NCBI GenBank assembly: GCA_024280065.1
Contig: JAJRQX010000147.1
Span: 1 to 14,710, forward strand
Source: Aquificota bacterium
GTDB taxonomy: Bacteria > Aquificota > Aquificia > Aquificales > Aquificaceae
Reading direction: 5' to 3'
DNA length: 14,710 nt
The notes under the pieces were generated by a model. That model was given only the letters and a program-made list of their open reading frames with translations. It searched no databases and was not told where the DNA came from. This document shows positions 7,337 through 14,710 of the stretch, piece after piece. Position 1 is the stretch's first letter; each line of letters begins with the position of its first letter. Both the position numbers and the translations under genes were made by a program.

Positions 7337-8101
7337 ATGAAGAGATATACCTTTGATGATTTAGTGAAGATAATGGAAGAACTGAGGAAGAAATGCCCCT
7401 GGGACAGGGAGCAGACCCACGAGAGCCTTAAAAAGTATCTCATAGAGGAGTCCTACGAGGTCCTTGACGCTATAGACTCAAAGGACGACAGAAAGCTACT
7501 TGAAGAGCTCGGAGACCTCCTCCTTCAGCCCGTGTTCCACGCCCAGATAGCTAAGGAGAGAGGGGCTTTCACCCTGGACGATGTGGTGGACCACCTCGTC
7601 AGGAAGCTTATAGAAAGACATCCTCACGTCTTCGGTGATGCGAAGGCTGAAGATGTCCTGAGGAACTGGGAAAGGAAAAAGATGGAGAAGAGGGACAGCG
7701 TCCTTGAGGGGATACCCAAACACCTCCCCGCCCTTATGAGGTCCCAGAAGCTCCAGGATAAGGCCTCCCAGGTCGGCTTTGACTTCACCCACATAGACCA
7801 GGTCTTTGAGAAGATAGAGGAGGAGATAAGGGAGCTTAAGGAGTCAATAGAAAAAGGTGAGAAGGAGAACCTCACCCACGAGATAGGGGACATACTCACC
7901 GCTGTGGTTGAGCTGGCAAGGTTCTTGAACGTGGACGCGGAAGAGGCCCTCCAAAAGGCAAACGACAGGTTCGTAAGTAGGTTTCAGTATATGGAAAGGA
8001 AGGCAAAGGAGATGGGTAAAAGGCTTGAAGACATGAGCCTTGAGGAGATGGACGATCTCTGGAGAGAAGCTAAAAGGGTCCTTGAAGGTCAGGAGGGGTA
8101 G
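7337..8101 (+). CDS. mazG: Nucleoside triphosphate pyrophosphohydrolase MazG
   Basis: A 254-residue cytoplasmic enzyme that cleaves NTPs or dNTPs to the monophosphate and pyrophosphate, used in nucleotide-pool sanitation and stress responses. It has the two tandem MazG domains of full-length bacterial MazG. The first carries the entry motif CPWDREQTH (20-28), the metal-binding E38-x2-E41 and the ELGD motif E57-x2-D60. The second, around residues 155-215, has the acidic helix [12 protein letters not shown] and [18 protein letters not shown]. The ATG lacks a Shine-Dalgarno and follows a -10-like TAAAAT, suggesting a leaderless message. Its last 13 bp overlap the end of convergent queH. Confidence 0.94.
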
Positions 8102-9330
8102 TCCAGGACCTCCTCCAGGCACCTCCCCGTTAACTCCTCAAAGAACCTCTGACCAGGTCTACCGAGGGAGTGGGCACCGAGGAGAACTAAGGAGACTCTG
8201 CCCTCCCTTATGTTCTCAGCTTTACTTTTGATAAGGGATATTACGTAGTCCCCTCTGAACCCCCTACCGTCCTGCAGTGTGTCCGCAGGTATGCCTATGA
8301 TCCTGTCCGCCTCCTCCCCACCTATGAGTAGAACCCTTGACCTCTCCTGAAGGAACTCTGTTCTTAAGGACACCTCAACCCTGCTTCTGAGCAACCTTTC
8401 CCTCCACTCCGCGGGAACTAAAAAGGTGGGACTCACAACACCTGTGATCTCGGAAACAGGCCTGTCCGCGAGCCTATCCACGAGGATCAGCCTCACGAAC
8501 TGCTTGTTGAGGTAGAGGGTGTTCCCGGAGACTCTCTCAACGTCCGCCCTCACCCTTCCCCTGACTGACTGGGAGAAGGGGACGACTATTGATGGGACCG
8601 CCTCCTTGTTCACCCAAACACCCCCTTCAAGCACCTTCCAGCTTAAGAAGGGGAATTCAAACTCCCTTACAGGAAGACCTATGCCCTCCGCGAAGGTCCT
8701 TATCTCTTTAACGAACAGGGCTTCCTCCTTGGATCCGGGCCTCCTGCCTCCGAAGGAGACGAGGTCCCAGAAGACCTCACCCTCCTTCTGCTTGAAGAGT
8801 CCGTAGATGCAACCGCAGTAATCCTGCTGGTATATTTCAAGGTTCCTGCTTAATCTGAACATCTCCTGGGTCCCTCCACCCTTCCTGTAGTCCAAAGCGA
8901 GGAACTTTATACCGTACTCCTTAGCAACCCTCTCCCCGCTGTCTTTGAGCTGGGGTATGCTCTTCTTGGGACTCATGAGAAGGGTTGTGGTCATAACATC
9001 GCAACCGAGTTCCTTGGCGAGCCTTGCGGATCTCTCAAGTCTGAAGTCAAAGCAGACCGAGCACCTCCTCCCCCTCTCGGGTTCATCCTCAAGGCCCTTC
9101 ACCGCCTCAAGCCAGTCCTCAAGGTTATACTCACCCTCTATGAGCTCTATACCCAGCTGTTTGCAGGTTCTCTTCGTCTCCTGAAGGCGTAGCCTATACT
9201 CCTCGTAAGGGTGTATGTTGGGGTCGTAGAAGAAACCAACTATCTCATCATCCGGGAAGTCCTCTCTCAGCCTTTTCAGGAAGTAAACCGCGTCCGGGGC
9301 ACAGCATATGTGGACCAGTATCCGACCCAT
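8089..9330 (-). CDS. queH: QueH-type epoxyqueuosine reductase fused to an uncharacterised C-terminal domain
   Basis: Residues 1 to about 185 match QueH (formerly DUF208), the non-B12 enzyme that reduces epoxyqueuosine to queuosine in tRNA. Visible: adjacent cysteines C9-C10 in [27 protein letters not shown] (33-48), [14 protein letters not shown] with C90-x2-C93, [10 protein letters not shown], and YCGCIYG with C172 and C174; these Cys supply the iron-sulfur site and redox pair. The protein is 413 residues, roughly twice the length of a minimal QueH. Residues 185-413 form a further segment with alternating strands and helices ([55 protein letters not shown]) that I do not recognise. The ATG lies 10 nt after the hspR stop, with AAGGAG 13 nt upstream, so it is probably the last gene of the long minus-strand run. 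Confidence 0.85.
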
Positions 9331-9340
9331 GGAGATAAGT

Positions 9341-9736
9341 TTACTCCTTGGACTTCTGGGCCTGTATGATGTCCTCCACCTTCATCACCTTTCTCTTGGA
9401 AACGTTAACTATAGCCTTTTTGAGCTCTTCGCTCTGAACGTTTGAGAGCTGGGTCTGTATGAACTCAAGAAGCTGGTCTATCTGTTTCTGGAGCTCCTCT
9501 ATCTGCTCCTTCATGTTCAGGATTATATCAACGCCAGCTAAGTTCACCCCCATCTCCCTCGTCAGGAACAGTATGAACTCAAGCCTCTCAAGGTCCTCGT
9601 CCGAGTAAAGCCGTGTGTTCCCCTCAGTTCTTGATGGCTTCAAGAGTCCCTCACGTTCATAAAGGCGGAGGGTCTGTGGGTGTATGTCGTACATCTTGGC
9701 CACAACACCTATGGTATAGAGACCCCTCCTTTTCAT
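9341..9736 (-). CDS. hspR: Heat-shock repressor HspR (MerR family)
   Basis: A 131-residue MerR-type DNA-binding protein. The winged helix spans about 7-60 and holds the HspR hallmark HPQTLRLYEREGLLKPSRT and NTRLYSDEDLERL, then FLTREMGVNLAGVDIILNM and a coiled coil at about 72-100 for dimerisation. HspR proteins repress dnaK/dnaJ/clpB operons by binding HAIR inverted repeats, usually with a chaperone as co-repressor. Here the gene directly follows dnaJ and a HAIR-like site lies before dnaJ, so autoregulation is predicted. The ATG at 9736 has GAGAGG 8 nt upstream; an in-frame GTG at 9745, overlapping the dnaJ stop as GTGA, would add three residues but has its ribosome site too close. Confidence 0.9.
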   Translation of the reverse strand: MKRRGLYTIGVVAKMYDIHPQTLRLYEREGLLKPSRTEGNTRLYSDEDLERLEFILFLTREMGVNLAGVDIILNMKEQIEELQKQIDQLLEFIQTQLSNVQSEELKKAIVNVSKRKVMKVEDIIQAQKSKE

Positions 9737-9741
9737 GGCTC

Positions 9742-10881
9742 TCACCTCTCAACTATCCTTTCTGGCTCTGGGAGAAGGTCCTTAAGTTCCTTTAACAGCT
9801 TCTCTAACTTTCTCCCGTCCCCCACAACCTTGTCCAGAACACCTATCCTCGGAACGTCTATGTTTACCCTTACAAGGAGGTCACCTCTGCCCGAACCCTT
9901 CAACCTCGGCATACCCTCACCCTTTACCCTTACTACCTCACCGTGTTTAGTCCCCGGGGGTATCTTTACCCTAACCTTGTTTCCGGACAACGTCGGTACC
10001 TCTATCTCAGTTCCGAGGACAGCCTCTGGGAAGGTCAGGTTCACATCAACGTAAAGGTCATCCCCTTCCCTCTGGAACACCCTGTGGGGTCTCACCTTCA
10101 CCTGTATGTAGAGGTTGCCCGGAGGCCCTCCAAACCTTCCCACATGACCCTTACCTTCAACCACAAGCCTTGACCCTGTGTCCACACCTGGTGGTATCCT
10201 CACCTTTATCTCCTCGCTCCTCTGGACAGTTCCCCCTCCTCCGCAAACCCTGCACCTCTCCCTGATCACACCATCTCCCCTGCATGTGGGACAGGTCTGG
10301 GATATCGTGATTATGAACTGTCTCTGGACCACCTGCCCCCTTCCTCCGCATGTCGGACAGGTCCTCACGCCCACACTCCTGTCGTATCCTGTACCTCCGC
10401 AGGCTTCACACTCCACCTCCCTGTACACGGTGACCTCGGTGGTGACACCTCTAAATGCCTCTTCAAGGGAGACCTCAACGGTCCTGTGTATGTCCTCCCC
10501 CCTTAGAGGTCTCCTCCTCTCACGCCTGCTCCTGGTTGCCCTTTCAAATATGGTGTCAAAGTCAAATCCAAAGCCGCCTTCAAAGAAGTCCCTAAGTATC
10601 TCCTCAAGATCAGATACGTGGGTTGTATGGGTAGCCTGCTGCTGTTGGGTACTCTCAAAGGCTGCGTGTCCGTACATGTCGTACATCTTCCTCTTTTCAG
10701 GGTCCGAGAGTACCTGGTAAGCCTCGTTTATCTCCTTGAACTTCTCCTTGGCCTCCGGGCTTTTGTTTATGTCAGGATGATACTTTCTTGCAAGCCTCCT
10801 GTAAGCCCTCTTTATCTCTTCCTGGGAAGCGTTCCTAGGAACCCCCAATATTTCGTAGTAATCCTTTTTGGTGGAGGGCAT
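9742..10881 (-). CDS. dnaJ: Chaperone DnaJ (Hsp40, class A)
   Basis: A 379-residue co-chaperone that delivers clients to DnaK and stimulates its ATPase. The J domain (6-73) has HPD at 35-37. The four zinc-binding CxxCxGxG repeats are at C158/C161, C175/C178, C197/C200 and C210/C213, followed by two C-terminal beta domains (LPG-like [18 protein letters not shown]) and a short tail. The linker between J domain and zinc region (about 75-130) is Gln/Thr- and acid-rich with only one short Gly/Phe stretch ([10 protein letters not shown]), so the usual G/F region is reduced. A strong Shine-Dalgarno AAGGAGG sits 7 nt upstream. No dnaK or grpE is adjacent. It has its own promoter with an HspR-type operator and is followed at once by hspR. 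Confidence 0.96.
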
Positions 10882-10888
10882 TTACAAA

Positions 10889-10895
10889 CCTCCTT
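10889..10895 (-). promoter_or_regulatory. Ribosome binding site for dnaJ
   Basis: AAGGAGG, 7 nt before the ATG, is the best Shine-Dalgarno match in the window and confirms the dnaJ start. Confidence 0.8.
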
Positions 10896-10917
10896 ACAAC
10901 TTTTGTTCCAGACTATT

Positions 10918-10946
10918 AATATAAAATTTGAGTATATTACTGTCAA
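10918..10946 (-). promoter_or_regulatory. sigma-A-type promoter of dnaJ-hspR
   Basis: On the minus strand TTGACA (10946-10941) and TATATT (10923-10918) are separated by exactly 17 nt, a near-consensus vegetative promoter. Transcription should start near 10911, giving a leader of about 30 nt that includes the dnaJ Shine-Dalgarno. The -35 box contains the TGA stop codon of truB (10945-10943), so the promoter begins inside the upstream gene. It is the only promoter in the window with both boxes well matched, and it lies in the largest intergenic gap (10882-10942). Confidence 0.75.
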
Positions 10947-10947
10947 G
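10927..10947 (-). promoter_or_regulatory. HAIR-like operator for HspR
   Basis: The minus strand reads CTTGACA-N7-ACTCAAA. The HspR-associated inverted repeat described in actinobacteria is CTTGAGT-N7-ACTCAAG: the left arm matches 5 of 7, the right arm 6 of 7, and the spacer length is exact. The site covers the -35 box and most of the spacer of the dnaJ promoter, where a bound repressor would exclude RNA polymerase. The operator consensus is established knowledge; its use here is inference. Confidence 0.65.
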
Positions 10948-11806
10948 TTTTTGGAACTATGAGCCTTTCAGGTTTCAGGACGCCTCCCCTCAGAAACCCT
11001 ACACCCACAAACATCCCGTCTATGTATATCCTAATATAACCTTCTGACTCTCTATCCTCCACCAGGACCTGGTTCCCGTTCATGACCCTTCTTCCCTGAA
11101 AGGTGTTGAGGTTGATAGAGGGAAGGAAGCCGAGCCCTTCCTCAACAGGCATGAGGTATGACTCAGGTCTATCCGACCTTAGAAACTCCTCAAGGTCTAC
11201 AGCCCTGTCAAGTGTAAGGGGACCCACCGCCATCCTGACGAGGTCCTTCACAGCCGCACCACAGGAGAGCCTCTGTCCTATGTCGTGTATTAAGGTCCTC
11301 ACGTAAGTTCCTGAGGAGACATCTGTGAACACGGTGAACTCTGGGATTCTGCACTCTTCAAGCTCAAGCCTGTAGACCTTAACCCTGACGGGCTTAAGAT
11401 CAGGCTTTACACCTTTCCTCGCCAGTTCGTAAGCCCTCCTTCCCCTTATCTTCTTGGCGGAGAAGGGGGGAGGGATCTGCTCTATCTCACCCCTGAACTC
11501 TCCGAGGACGCTCTCTATTTCCTGACAGCTCACCTTAACCTCCCTCTCCTCAACCACGTTGCCATCCATATCGTAGGTGTCCGTTATAACACCGAGGAGA
11601 CCAACCACCCTATAGGCCTTCGGAAGCTCCTGAAATATCCAGGTGAACCTGGTAGCTCTGCCGGTCAGGAGTATCAGGAGTCCGGTCGCGATCGGGTCAA
11701 GGGTTCCGGTGTGGCCTACCTTGGTTTTTAGTCTTCTCCTCACCTCCTCAACCACCCCGGTGGAGGTCCAGCCCTTGGGCTTGTTTATAAGGAGGACACC
11801 GTCCAT
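10943..11806 (-). CDS. truB: tRNA pseudouridine-55 synthase TruB
   Basis: A 287-residue enzyme that isomerises U55 in the T-loop of tRNAs to pseudouridine. N-terminal LLINKPKGWTS is the family signature; the catalytic aspartate is D37 in GHTGTLDPIATGLL. Further conserved parts are PPFSAKKIRGRRAYELAR, the VSSGTYVRTLIHDIG motif and a C-terminal PUA-like RNA-binding region (about 230-287). The ATG shares one base with the sigma factor stop (TGATG), so the two are translationally coupled; the ribosome site is weak. The stop codon lies in the -35 box of the dnaJ promoter. Confidence 0.95.
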   Translation of the reverse strand: MDGVLLINKPKGWTSTGVVEEVRRRLKTKVGHTGTLDPIATGLLILLTGRATRFTWIFQELPKAYRVVGLLGVITDTYDMDGNVVEEREVKVSCQEIESVLGEFRGEIEQIPPPFSAKKIRGRRAYELARKGVKPDLKPVRVKVYRLELEECRIPEFTVFTDVSSGTYVRTLIHDIGQRLSCGAAVKDLVRMAVGPLTLDRAVDLEEFLRSDRPESYLMPVEEGLGFLPSINLNTFQGRRVMNGNQVLVEDRESEGYIRIYIDGMFVGVGFLRGGVLKPERLIVPKT

Positions 11807-12735
11807 CAGCTCAGGAAGTCCTTGAGGTGTCTTTTCATAGCCAAGTTCCTGAGCTTTCTCAGTGCCCTCGTCTCAAGCTGTCTGACCCTCTCCCTTGAGA
11901 CCTTAAGGATCTCCCCTATCTCCCTCAGGGTCTTGGGTTCGTTACCTCTGAGGCCGAACCTGAGCTCTATAACCTTCCTCTCCTTCTCGGGTAGCTTGTC
12001 AAGAAGGTTGTAGATCTCCTTCTCAAGTACCTCCCTTATGACGCTCTCCTCTACCTCCGCGGTTCCGTGCTTACTCAGGAAGTCAACGAAGAAGGTGTCC
12101 TCGTTTTCCCCGACCGGTGCGTCCAAAGATAGGGGTATTCTGCAGACCTGGAGGTACCTCTCCACCTCCTCGGGGGATATCCTGTAGCCCTCTTTTTCAA
12201 ACTTCTTCTCTACCTCCTCCTCGGAGGGCGGTCTTCCGAGCTCCTTCTCAAGCTCCTTGGCTATCATCTCCTTGGAGAGATGTTCCGCCACCTCCTCAGG
12301 CGTGGGCTCCCTCTCAAGCTCCTTGGCGAGCTCCGAGTATACGGTCCCTATCTTGCTTATAAGGTGGGATTGCTTCAGAGGTATCCTTACAGCTCCTGTC
12401 TGCTGGGAGAGGGCCTGCATTATGGCCTGCCTTATCCACCAGACCGCGTAGGATATGAACTTGACACCCCTGTCCGGGTCAAACCTCTTGGCAGCCTCCA
12501 AGAGGCCGAGGTTCCCCGCCGCTATCAGCTCCGAGAACGGGAGGCCGTAACCTATGTATTGCTTAGCTATGCTGACGACAAACCTGAGATTAGATTCCAC
12601 CAGCTTCTTCAGGGCCTCCTCGTCTCCTTCCTTCGCCCTCCTCGCCAGCTCCTTCTCCTCCTCGGGTGTGAGGAGGGGTATGTTTGATATCCTCTTAAGA
12701 TACTGGTTTATGAGCTCCTGCTCAGTGTCAGGCAT
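11806..12735 (-). CDS. RNA polymerase sigma-70 family factor (group 2-like) with an expanded region 3
   Basis: A 309-residue sigma factor without region 1.1. Region 1.2 (8-45), region 2 (46-120: NLRFVVSIAKQYIGYG and FISYAVWWIRQAIMQAL, the -10-recognition part), region 3 (121-235) and region 4 (about 240-305: LPEKERKVIELRFGLRG and the HTH REIGEILKVSRERVRQLE) are all present. Region 3 is long: the usual LxxELxREPTPEEVAxxL element (135-153) is followed by a second similar one (158-179, ELEKELGRPPSEEEVEKKF) before ISPEEVERYL. It is probably an alternative or RpoS-like factor rather than the main vegetative one, because region 1.1 is missing; the assignment is uncertain. ATG 12735 has GAGAGG 5 nt upstream; a GTG at 12741 is less likely. 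Confidence 0.88.
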   Translation of the reverse strand: MPDTEQELINQYLKRISNIPLLTPEEEKELARRAKEGDEEALKKLVESNLRFVVSIAKQYIGYGLPFSELIAAGNLGLLEAAKRFDPDRGVKFISYAVWWIRQAIMQALSQQTGAVRIPLKQSHLISKIGTVYSELAKELEREPTPEEVAEHLSKEMIAKELEKELGRPPSEEEVEKKFEKEGYRISPEEVERYLQVCRIPLSLDAPVGENEDTFFVDFLSKHGTAEVEESVIREVLEKEIYNLLDKLPEKERKVIELRFGLRGNEPKTLREIGEILKVSRERVRQLETRALRKLRNLAMKRHLKDFLS

Positions 12736-12740
12736 GGCCA

Positions 12741-12746
12741 CCTCTC
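12741..12746 (-). promoter_or_regulatory. Ribosome binding site for the sigma factor gene
   Basis: GAGAGG overlaps the htrA stop and stands 5 nt before the ATG at 12735. It abuts the alternative GTG at 12741 and so cannot serve it. Confidence 0.6.
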
Positions 12747-14142
12747 ACTCTAAGTTGAGAACTAGGTAGAGGTTACTCTCCCCTCTCCTCACTAAGAGCA
12801 GAACCTTTGTCTTACCCATCTCCTTCAGGTTCTCTATCAGCCTCTTGAACTCCTGAACCGTCCTCACCTTCCTGTAGTTTACTCTCATTATAACATCTCC
12901 GGGCCTGAGACCGCTCCTGTGGGCGAGGCTTCCGGGCTCAACGCCCACCACCAATACACCCTCCACACCTATCCTCGCTCTCTCTTGGGGTGTGAGGTCC
13001 CTTAAGGAAAGGCCGAGGTCCTCGCCTTCATAGTCCCTCTGTCTGGTAACTCCCCTCTCGGGGAGCTCACCTATCTTTACCTTAATCTCCCTTTTCTTAC
13101 CTTCCCTGATTACGGTCAAGGTTACAACCGTCCCGGGCTTCGTCCTCATGATCGCTATCTGGAGGTCCCTCACCGAATCCATCTTCTTACCGTTCAGGGC
13201 TATTATTATGTCCCCGACCTTCAGTCCCGCCCTTTCGGCAGGGCTGTCCTTTATAACCTGGGCTATTATGATCCCCTCCCTGACGCCTATCGCCTCCCCT
13301 ATATCGGGTGTTATCTCCTGGATCACAACCCCGAGCCAGCCCCTTATGACCCTCCCGTGCTGGAGTATCTGGTCCATGACCCACTTGGCGAGGTTTATGG
13401 GTATGGCGAATCCGAGCCCCTGCCCCGAGGCAACTATGGCCGTGTTTATCCCTATGACCTCACCCTTTATGTTTATTAGCGGTCCCCCGGAGTTACCCGG
13501 GTTTATGGGGGCGTCCGTCTGGATGTAGCTCTCATACTGGGTTATCCCTATGCTCCTCTTCAGGGCGGAGACGACGCCTACAGTCACGGTTCTCTCAAGA
13601 CCGTAGGGGTTCCCTATGGCTATGACTATCTGGCCAACCCTAACCTTATCCGAGTCTCCAAGCTTGGCGACCCTCTTCTCTATGTCCTTGATCCCTTTAG
13701 CCTCCACCTCAAGGACCGCAATGTCGGTCTTCGGATCCGTTCCCACTATCCTGGCCTTCCTCTCGGTGTGCTTGTCAAACCTCACAGTTATGCTTCTCGC
13801 GTCTTCAACCACATGGTTGTTGGTCAGTATGTAAACCTTACCTTTCTCATACTTAACTATGACACCCGAGCCTAAGGACCTTCTCTCCTGTCTGAAGGGT
13901 TCAAAGGGAAGTCTGAAGGGGAGGTCAAAGTCCTCAAAGGGATTGAACTCAACCGTCTGAACCGCGAATATGGTCACCACGGAAGGAGAAACTCTATCAA
14001 CTATCTCGGTAAGCTCCTTCTCAAAGGCTTCTAATATGCTACCCTTCGGCTCATCGGAATTGTTCTTAGCGGGTGTGGTATCAACCCTGCAGGCAAGGAG
14101 GAGTATGATCGCAGACGTCAGAAAGAGGGTAAGGGTTCTCAT
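12745..14142 (-). CDS. HtrA/Deg-family serine protease with two PDZ domains, probable lipoprotein
   Basis: A 465-residue envelope protease/chaperone that degrades misfolded proteins. Catalytic triad: H110 in LTNNHVVEDA, D140 in KTDIAVLEV, S218 in NPGNSGGPL. Two PDZ domains follow (about 269-358 and 375-455), as in DegP/DegQ. The N-terminus is a basic residue plus a hydrophobic stretch ending LLLAC, a lipobox-like motif with C18, so the protein is probably lipid-anchored rather than free in the periplasm; Leu at -2 is a little unusual. The start at 14142 is chosen because GGGAGG lies 6 nt upstream; an ATG at 14160, overlapping the upstream stop, would add six residues in front of the signal peptide. 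It is followed within 9 nt by the sigma factor gene. Confidence 0.92.
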   Translation of the reverse strand: MRTLTLFLTSAIILLLACRVDTTPAKNNSDEPKGSILEAFEKELTEIVDRVSPSVVTIFAVQTVEFNPFEDFDLPFRLPFEPFRQERRSLGSGVIVKYEKGKVYILTNNHVVEDARSITVRFDKHTERKARIVGTDPKTDIAVLEVEAKGIKDIEKRVAKLGDSDKVRVGQIVIAIGNPYGLERTVTVGVVSALKRSIGITQYESYIQTDAPINPGNSGGPLINIKGEVIGINTAIVASGQGLGFAIPINLAKWVMDQILQHGRVIRGWLGVVIQEITPDIGEAIGVREGIIIAQVIKDSPAERAGLKVGDIIIALNGKKMDSVRDLQIAIMRTKPGTVVTLTVIREGKKREIKVKIGELPERGVTRQRDYEGEDLGLSLRDLTPQERARIGVEGVLVVGVEPGSLAHRSGLRPGDVIMRVNYRKVRTVQEFKRLIENLKEMGKTKVLLLVRRGESNLYLVLNLE

Positions 14143-14148
14143 GACCAA

Positions 14149-14154
14149 CCTCCC
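14149..14154 (-). promoter_or_regulatory. Ribosome binding site for htrA
   Basis: GGGAGG, 6 nt before the ATG at 14142. It falls after the upstream in-frame ATG at 14160 and thus decides between the two. Confidence 0.75.
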
Positions 14155-14156
14155 GA

Positions 14157-14710
14157 TCATACCCGCCTCGCATACAAGAATAACACACGGAACTTAGGTT
14201 CTCCAAGACCGCGGAGAAGGTCATCTATCCTGTCCCTGCTCAGGACCTTTCTTCTCTTTGGGTTCAGGGAGGATCCGGTGAAGTGGAAGAACCTAACGAG
14301 ATCCCACCCCGAGAATGGTATTCTGACTTCCTTTATCTCAAACTCCTTTGGGAAAGGTATGTATCTTAAAACCTCATCCACCTTGGGGAAGGGAAAGTCA
14401 AGACCCTCAAGGCTTCCCTCAACGGGGAGAGCCATACCTACACCCACCCTTGCTACCCTCAGAAGCTCGGGGATACTCTTTGAGAGGTCGGTCCAGTGAA
14501 GGGAGAAGTTGCTGAGGACCCAATCAAAGCTCTCCTCCTTAAAGGGCAGGGCCTCCGCGTCCCCCATGACGACAGCTCCGAACCTCCTCCTGTAGACCTC
14601 AGCCATACCGTAGGAGAGGTCAAGCCCTACCACCGGGCAGTTTCTGAGGAAAGAGGAGACGAAGCCCGTCCCGCAACCTACGTCCAGAACAGAACCCTCG
14701 GGCCTCACCA
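14157..14710 (-). CDS. SAM-dependent methyltransferase, BioC-like (malonyl-ACP O-methyltransferase), 5' end outside the window
   Basis: At least 183 residues of a class I methyltransferase. Motif I is SVLDVGCGTGFVSSFL, followed by VVGLDLS (motif II acidic residue), MGDAEALPFKEESFDWVLSN (motifs III-IV) and SLHWTDLSKSIPELLRV. The C-terminal half, with FSGWDLVRFFHFTGSSLNP, resembles BioC, which methylates malonyl-ACP to start pimelate synthesis for biotin, and the SNFSLHW stretch is typical. A GTG at 14708 is not the likely start, since BioC proteins have about 30 more residues before motif I; the true start is beyond the right edge. The stop lies just before the htrA start. A bioD gene at the other end of the window shows that the organism makes biotin. 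Other small methyltransferases remain possible. Confidence 0.65.
   Translation of the reverse strand, partial: VRPEGSVLDVGCGTGFVSSFLRNCPVVGLDLSYGMAEVYRRRFGAVVMGDAEALPFKEESFDWVLSNFSLHWTDLSKSIPELLRVARVGVGMALPVEGSLEGLDFPFPKVDEVLRYIPFPKEFEIKEVRIPFSGWDLVRFFHFTGSSLNPKRRKVLSRDRIDDLLRGLGEPKFRVLFLYARRV

Follow-up and report, generated by a model that had tools for sequence, protein, structure and literature searches.

What is the function of the inverted repeat lying in front of the dnaJ-hspR genes of this Aquificota bacterium: is it an operator for the repressor that the operon itself encodes, simply a strong promoter, a site for some other regulator, or a fortuitous match? The conservation, the spacing and the gene associations of the site, together with the identity of HspR, all of them read from sequence, suggest that the element is very probably an operator through which HspR autoregulates the dnaJ-hspR operon, and that HspR would run a regulon including other chaperone genes.

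A HAIR-type element within the dnaJ-hspR promoter

In the window (the whole stretch of 14,710 nucleotides analysed here), the initial annotation had described a 21-bp element with 11 of 14 arm positions of the HAIR consensus and the exact 7-nt spacer, had placed it over the -35 box and spacer of a promoter, and had stated that dnaK was not adjacent to dnaJ-hspR. These statements held when the minus strand was re-read and the gene content of the window was confirmed (Table 1). The agreement at 11/14 arm positions is with CTTGAGT-N7-ACTCAAG, the Streptomyces or actinobacterial consensus quoted in excerpts of PMC6102357 and PMC7464140, and the promoter, TTGACA-N17-TATATT, matched 11/12 consensus positions. 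The left arm differs from the canonical CTTGAGT only in its final two bases (GT to CA) and, since this change creates exactly TTGACA, the operator sequence appears to be a compromise between repressor and sigma factor. The operator centre is located about 5 bases upstream of the midpoint of the 17-bp promoter spacer. Judging from the -10 box, transcription of dnaJ would start near position 10911; the ATG is at 10881, separated from the operator by 45 nt, and the stop codon of truB (10945-10943) falls within the CTTGA of the first arm.

Table 1. Position of the predicted operator, promoter elements and genes in the window.
Feature	Position	Strand	Remarks
HAIR-type operator CTTGACA-N7-ACTCAAA	10927..10947	minus	Read from sequence; predicted
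Left operator arm CTTGACA	10947-10941	minus
Operator spacer GTAATAT	10940-10934	minus
Right operator arm ACTCAAA	10933-10927	minus
-35 box TTGACA	10941..10946	minus	Within left operator arm
-10 box TATATT	10918..10923	minus	17-nt spacer from -35
Shine-Dalgarno AGGAGG of dnaJ	10889..10894	minus
dnaJ, zinc-finger type	9742..10881	minus	First operon gene; TIGR02349 420.6 bits, cut-off 377.2
hspR, MerR-family repressor	9341..9745	minus	Overlaps dnaJ end by 4 nt
QueH-domain gene	8089..9330	minus	PF02677 222 bits; 10 nt downstream of hspR
truB	10943..11806	minus	Upstream of dnaJ; stop inside operator
sigma-70 family gene	11806-12741	minus	Two genes upstream of dnaJ, same strand

The dnaJ product carries the Pfam domains DnaJ, DnaJ_CXXCXGXG and DnaJ_C, and the product of the second gene passed the NCBIfam HspR equivalog NF047375 (111.4 bits against a cut-off of 105) and also bears the MerR_1 helix-turn-helix of Pfam. 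The QueH-domain gene is possibly cotranscribed with both; the Pfam match of its product spans only residues 4-177 of 413, and its C-terminal half gave no Pfam or NCBIfam match. On the other side, we found no minus-strand terminator-like site in 10700-11100, the truB-dnaJ junction, so that read-through may feed the operon, and transcription coming from truB could bypass the autoregulatory loop. In the stretch 11806-14160, the sigma-70 family gene sits between truB and a DegP/HtrA-type protease gene of the same strand, and its product scored below every listed RpoD, RpoS and RpoH cut-off.

Conservation of the site upstream of chaperone genes

Taken by itself, the bare consensus match at 11/14 is weak, barely above chance: a second one was found within a gene of the same window (14382-14402), and mononucleotide-shuffled versions of the 109-nt upstream region attained 11/14 at P = 0.0035. 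It is the comparison with relatives that places the site far beyond chance. A sample of dnaJ loci was picked by HspR similarity and not by the motif (the 30 best loci plus 20 from other genera, without L018 and L032, where the dnaJ start is missing). TTGACA-N7-RCTMA was present upstream of dnaJ in 40/42 sampled loci of families f1 and f2, being missing from the other two, against a rate of 1.25e-4 per upstream region in mononucleotide shuffles. The loci bearing it were 13/13 in the genus of the window (g1, own locus included), 5/5 in g2, 3/4 in g10, 2/2 in g11, 10/11 in the rest of f1 and 7/7 in f2. Among the dnaJ operators of g1 the columns TTGACA and CTCA were invariant (2.0 bits), with 0.3-1.4 bits in the spacer and 0.6-1.6 bits at the outermost arm positions. 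The dnaJ promoter of one genome (G050) had two hybrid sites, whereas the other promoters that were read had mostly one. Family f3 keeps dnaJ-hspR without the strict site (0/4 distinct genomes; 6 rows, two genomes appearing twice), and some of its loci showed by eye TTGACA or TTTACA-N7-TATCAA, that is, a TATCAA right arm at equal spacing.

Loose HAIR patterns were too unspecific in the own genome (180 matches per strand with up to one mismatch, control 49; 777 with up to three, control 477) and were therefore replaced by CTTGACA-N7-RCTMAA; of the near matches with up to three mismatches, the one at the clpB-like gene described below was taken further. In the window, with 3 mismatches allowed, 13 matches were obtained against 8.9 expected, and only the dnaJ site had zero mismatches. 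In the 64 genomes of the family, CTTGACA-N7-RCTCAA occurred at 53 places and CTTGACA-N7-RCTAAA at 96, against 2 and 0 matches, respectively, of the reversed-pattern controls. With each of these 149 places assigned by the reading frame that follows it or by adjacency to hspR, 118 preceded dnaK (46), clpB (41), dnaJ-hspR (28) or hsp20 (3), these names resting in relatives mostly on N-terminal sequence motifs, with model checks for L005, L174, L266 and the dnaK loci found by the DnaK model. The remaining places belonged to a transposon family (11), a DUF5335 gene (1) and others (19, G056:C8 of the RCTAAA places among them). Six of the 53 RCTCAA places were called dnaJ by the coordinates of the HspR search, and five of the 96 RCTAAA places were called dnaJ either by sequence (L178, L186 and L037) or by coordinates (two); L142 and L166, which break off at a contig edge, were called clpB and dnaJ by promoter sequence alone. 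Sites of the same gene in related genomes are not independent, but the occurrence at four different operons is.

Outside the family, the exact pattern was about fourfold enriched in f2 (42 matches, control 10; places not sorted by gene), near background in f4/f5 (12, control 8), and gave 0 matches in the 7 genomes of f3 (control 2). Hybrid sites also precede dnaJ in two Aminicenantota loci (L095 and L113), and others occur in L092 and in the Acidobacteriota loci L077 and L078.

According to the initial annotation, similar sites were to be looked for near other chaperone genes of the genome, and they were found: one before a clpB-like gene and an upstream version at groES, as well as, in relatives, the hybrid site before dnaK, clpB, hsp20 and dnaJ-hspR. 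The own genome had exactly two exact matches: the dnaJ-hspR site and a second one, in agreement with the HAIR consensus at 12/14 positions, that lies 36 nt ahead of a Clp_N-domain reading frame cut short by the contig end. A relative of this gene (L174) reached 381.5 bits with the ClpB model (cut-off 1232) on an incomplete stretch. The ClpB-like proteins L174:1562-3019 and L005:1558-2178 have a short Clp_N match and, ahead of the first AAA domain, a long stretch free of Pfam Clp domains that may be an unusual N-terminal insert. The clpB promoters of relatives had by eye an AT-rich -10 box, TATTAT, at N17. In G006, a DUF5335 gene (L160:1553-1897) has a clpB-type site in front of it and could be one more gene of the regulon.

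No dnaK was found in the own genome, which is 79% complete. Among loci of the genus found by the DnaK model, TTGACA-N7-ACTAA was present in 13/13 with a readable start, and 11 dnaK promoters of relatives had by eye a -10 box, TAAAAT, at N17. The 91-row upstream comparison from which the dnaK and groES counts were taken includes one place twice (L254 = L271).

The groES genes presented a different arrangement. Their core promoter, TTGACA...TATAAT, lacks the right arm, and TWAGY-N7-RCTHA begins 35 or 36 nt ahead of this TTGACA in 12/14 loci of the genus, own locus included, being missing from the other two (shuffle rate 0.003). The half-sites were 7 nt apart in 12 loci and 4 in one, with no other spacing, and a third half-site, RCTAA, was located 7 nt farther upstream in 11/14 loci (L337-L350), with no other spacing between 3 and 12. 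Because this motif was defined after reading those very loci, the counts describe rather than test, and what is informative about groES is that the half-sites keep to a spacing of 7 almost exclusively. The left arm of groES, away from the -35 box, reads TTAGY, the mirror of RCTMA, supporting the idea that the TTGACA of dnaJ, dnaK and clpB is a left half-site bent to serve the sigma factor. Many groES loci showed by eye a further upstream block, AAAAGAAA..CTTATA.

These data bear on the proposal that the motif is just a strong promoter of heat-shock genes, used by a housekeeping or heat-shock sigma factor, with a right arm that no repressor reads. TTGACA-N17-TATATT is indeed a good sigma-70 promoter, and the second gene upstream of dnaJ belongs to the sigma-70 family. 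Sigma-70, however, is not known to require a fixed sequence in the promoter spacer, and RCTMAA sits in that spacer at exactly N7: a search of ten genomes that allowed any spacing from 3 to 12 gave 30 matches, 26 of them with a spacing of 7 (four of these 26 not being chaperone sites), and 7 control matches over all spacings. Moreover, groES has a TTGACA without the right arm and yet the same half-sites upstream, 7 nt apart, both arms fit HAIR, and the operon itself encodes HspR. We thus consider this explanation improbable.

A family of insertion sequences in genomes of g1 and g11, with the terminal repeat CTAAAGTTTTGCA, has CTTGACA-N7-RCTCAAG just within its left end (copies L144, L147, L157, L158, L162, L164, L168, L173 and L175; altered copies L150 and L165). 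The site begins 54-69 nt before the transposase start in the 7 copies whose start was found by script, and the L162 copy encodes a DDE_Tnp_1 transposase. When the 136 genomes were searched without the motif, by the terminal repeat and a downstream CCTCC, 10 matches were obtained, 8 resembling the element and 2 in unrelated sequence; every one of the 8 retains CTTGACA-N7-RCTCAAG, and its spacer occurs in 7 versions. These 8 belong to the 11 copies already found by the CTTGACA-N7-RCTCAA pattern and the copies may share one ancestor, so that the result is a lead and not a proof. By eye, the -10 box is poor (GTAAAA or TAAAAA), which speaks against a strong promoter there. Tentatively, the insertion sequence might have captured an HspR operator, in which case the heat-shock repressor of the host would govern transposase expression and perhaps transposition.

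The regulator and the predicted circuit

An HspR match at E <= 0.001 was obtained in 126/136 Aquificota genomes, four of them having weak MerR-family matches only (G016, G018, G019 and G041), and strong matches were present in 94/105 genomes of f1 and f2. For G016, a dnaJ-type promoter at a contig end (L166) led us to drop the idea that the system is missing. HrcA (PF01628) was found in 0/112 genomes of f1-f3 and in 23/24 of f4/f5. In a tree of 59 HspR rows, the Aquificales HspR (26 rows, 89/97) grouped with those of Acidobacteriota and Aminicenantota, apart from the HspR of f4/f5 (100/100); the rows of those two phyla had been taken in as best matches to the query (best 80 of 541), and the tree, built without actinobacterial or campylobacterial HspR, has no bearing on an origin outside the sampled groups. 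In f4/f5, dnaJ was not adjacent to hspR in the stretches fetched (L196-L209), and hspR has a promoter-like block of its own, which differs from the f1 operator and contains a TTGACA that in many cases follows TTTTAAG.

In genome G000, a second, weak MerR-family match (G000:C98:799-1011, 34% identity) shares a contig with groES, at a distance of about 1.7 kb. Comparable MerR and groES neighbours were observed in G009, G020 and G022, the transporter-like frame of G009 pointing away from groES. Genome G026, 99% complete, gave no HspR match although it has the operator at dnaK and clpB; its sole DnaJ match was 44% identical, and a gap in this MAG would be the likely reason for the missing HspR. 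The weak match near groES and the sites of G026 could be taken to mean that the operator is real but read by another regulator, for example a different MerR-family protein. Against this, HspR is strongly matched in most f1 and f2 genomes, and the abundance of the pattern relative to its control falls from f1 (149 to 2) through f2 to f4/f5, where HspR forms a separate lineage; we consider another regulator improbable as well. Finally, a match arising by chance where a -35 box meets the stop codon of truB, as the overlap of CTTGA with that stop and the one recurrence of an 11/14 match in the window might suggest, is refuted by the comparative data: nearly all sampled f1 and f2 dnaJ loci carry the site, so do clpB, dnaK and hsp20, and pattern places far outnumber control matches.

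Returning to HspR as the reader of the site, we infer binding, repression and heat induction from the sequence data as follows. An HspR dimer would bind CTTGACA-N7-ACTCAAA, covering the -35 box together with the adjoining 14 nt of the promoter spacer (17 nt in all), and would keep RNA polymerase with the housekeeping sigma factor off the promoter. With a left arm that doubles as the -35 box and a centre about 5 bases upstream of the spacer midpoint, the simplest reading would be that HspR blocks sigma region 4 directly; the promoters on which MerR-type activators work have longer spacers. Heat or unfolded protein would lower HspR activity and derepress the operon, and fresh HspR and chaperones would then close the loop. 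In the own genome the clpB-like gene would be governed by the same operator, as would dnaK, clpB and hsp20 of relatives; control of groES may run through the symmetrical form of the site, some 28 bp upstream of its -35 box.

Concerning the cofactor, the operator in front of dnaK in every readable locus of the genus would make a DnaK feedback possible and is compatible with a DnaK co-repressor, without being proof of it. With dnaJ in the hspR operon and dnaK in the regulon of relatives, either feedback is possible, through titration of DnaK, DnaJ or both. Our guess leans to DnaK, at somewhat less than an even chance; DnaJ seems rather unlikely, and an HspR needing neither of them a little more so.

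HspR circuits in other bacteria

Aquificota is a largely thermophilic phylum, and the data predict for Aquificales a heat-shock circuit in which HspR, without HrcA, would act over dnaJ-hspR, dnaK, clpB, hsp20 and probably groES. The dozens of natural operator-promoter variants lend themselves to studying how one set of bases can serve both a repressor and a -35 box, and the question of DnaK or DnaJ as cofactor becomes addressable where hspR is coupled to dnaJ and not to dnaK. No paper describing HspR in Aquificales or Aquificota was found among the open-licence PMC papers listed, and those linking HspR with Aquifex were, by their titles, on other subjects. HspR, HAIR and autoregulation are already known; the present locus is a well-supported case with an instructive fusion of operator and promoter.

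The following comparison is based on excerpts of the cited papers. The arrangement resembles the cbpA-hspR-rarA operon of Helicobacter pylori, where a DnaJ-like gene and hspR are in one operon without dnaK (PMC6102357, PMC6032397). There, HspR overlaps the -35 and -10 boxes of its own operon promoter, and at groES it is positioned upstream of the core promoter (PMC6032397, PMC6102357). Both systems share a HAIR-like inverted repeat, a site over the own promoter and a site upstream of the core at groES. However, H. pylori also has HrcA, which was not found here in f1-f3, and its HspR binds over a region of some 70-80 bp, with CbpA and not DnaK as modulator (PMC6102357, PMC6032397), the DnaJ-like CbpA hindering HspR binding (PMC6032397). 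Unlike in H. pylori, the DnaJ described here is of the zinc-finger type and a full TTGACA stands in the left arm.

In Campylobacter jejuni, as here, the left arm is better conserved than the right one, and HAIR-like sites occur at the cbp, clp, gro and hrc promoters; there, HspR works with HrcA at gro and hrc, and promoters have several HAIR-like sites (PMC7464140).

The likeness to Streptomyces includes the HAIR sequence CTTGAGT-N7-ACTCAAG (PMC6102357, PMC7464140), dnaK and clpB as targets, and autoregulation. According to the excerpts, DnaK is the co-repressor of HspR in Streptomyces (PMC6032397, PMC2687793), helping it to bind in S. coelicolor (PMC6032397), HspR controls the dnaK operon, and three HAIR copies are reported, whereas here hspR accompanies dnaJ, the promoters that were read have mostly one hybrid site (two at dnaJ of G050, three half-sites at groES) and, unlike in Streptomyces, the dnaK of the relatives is a separate unit.
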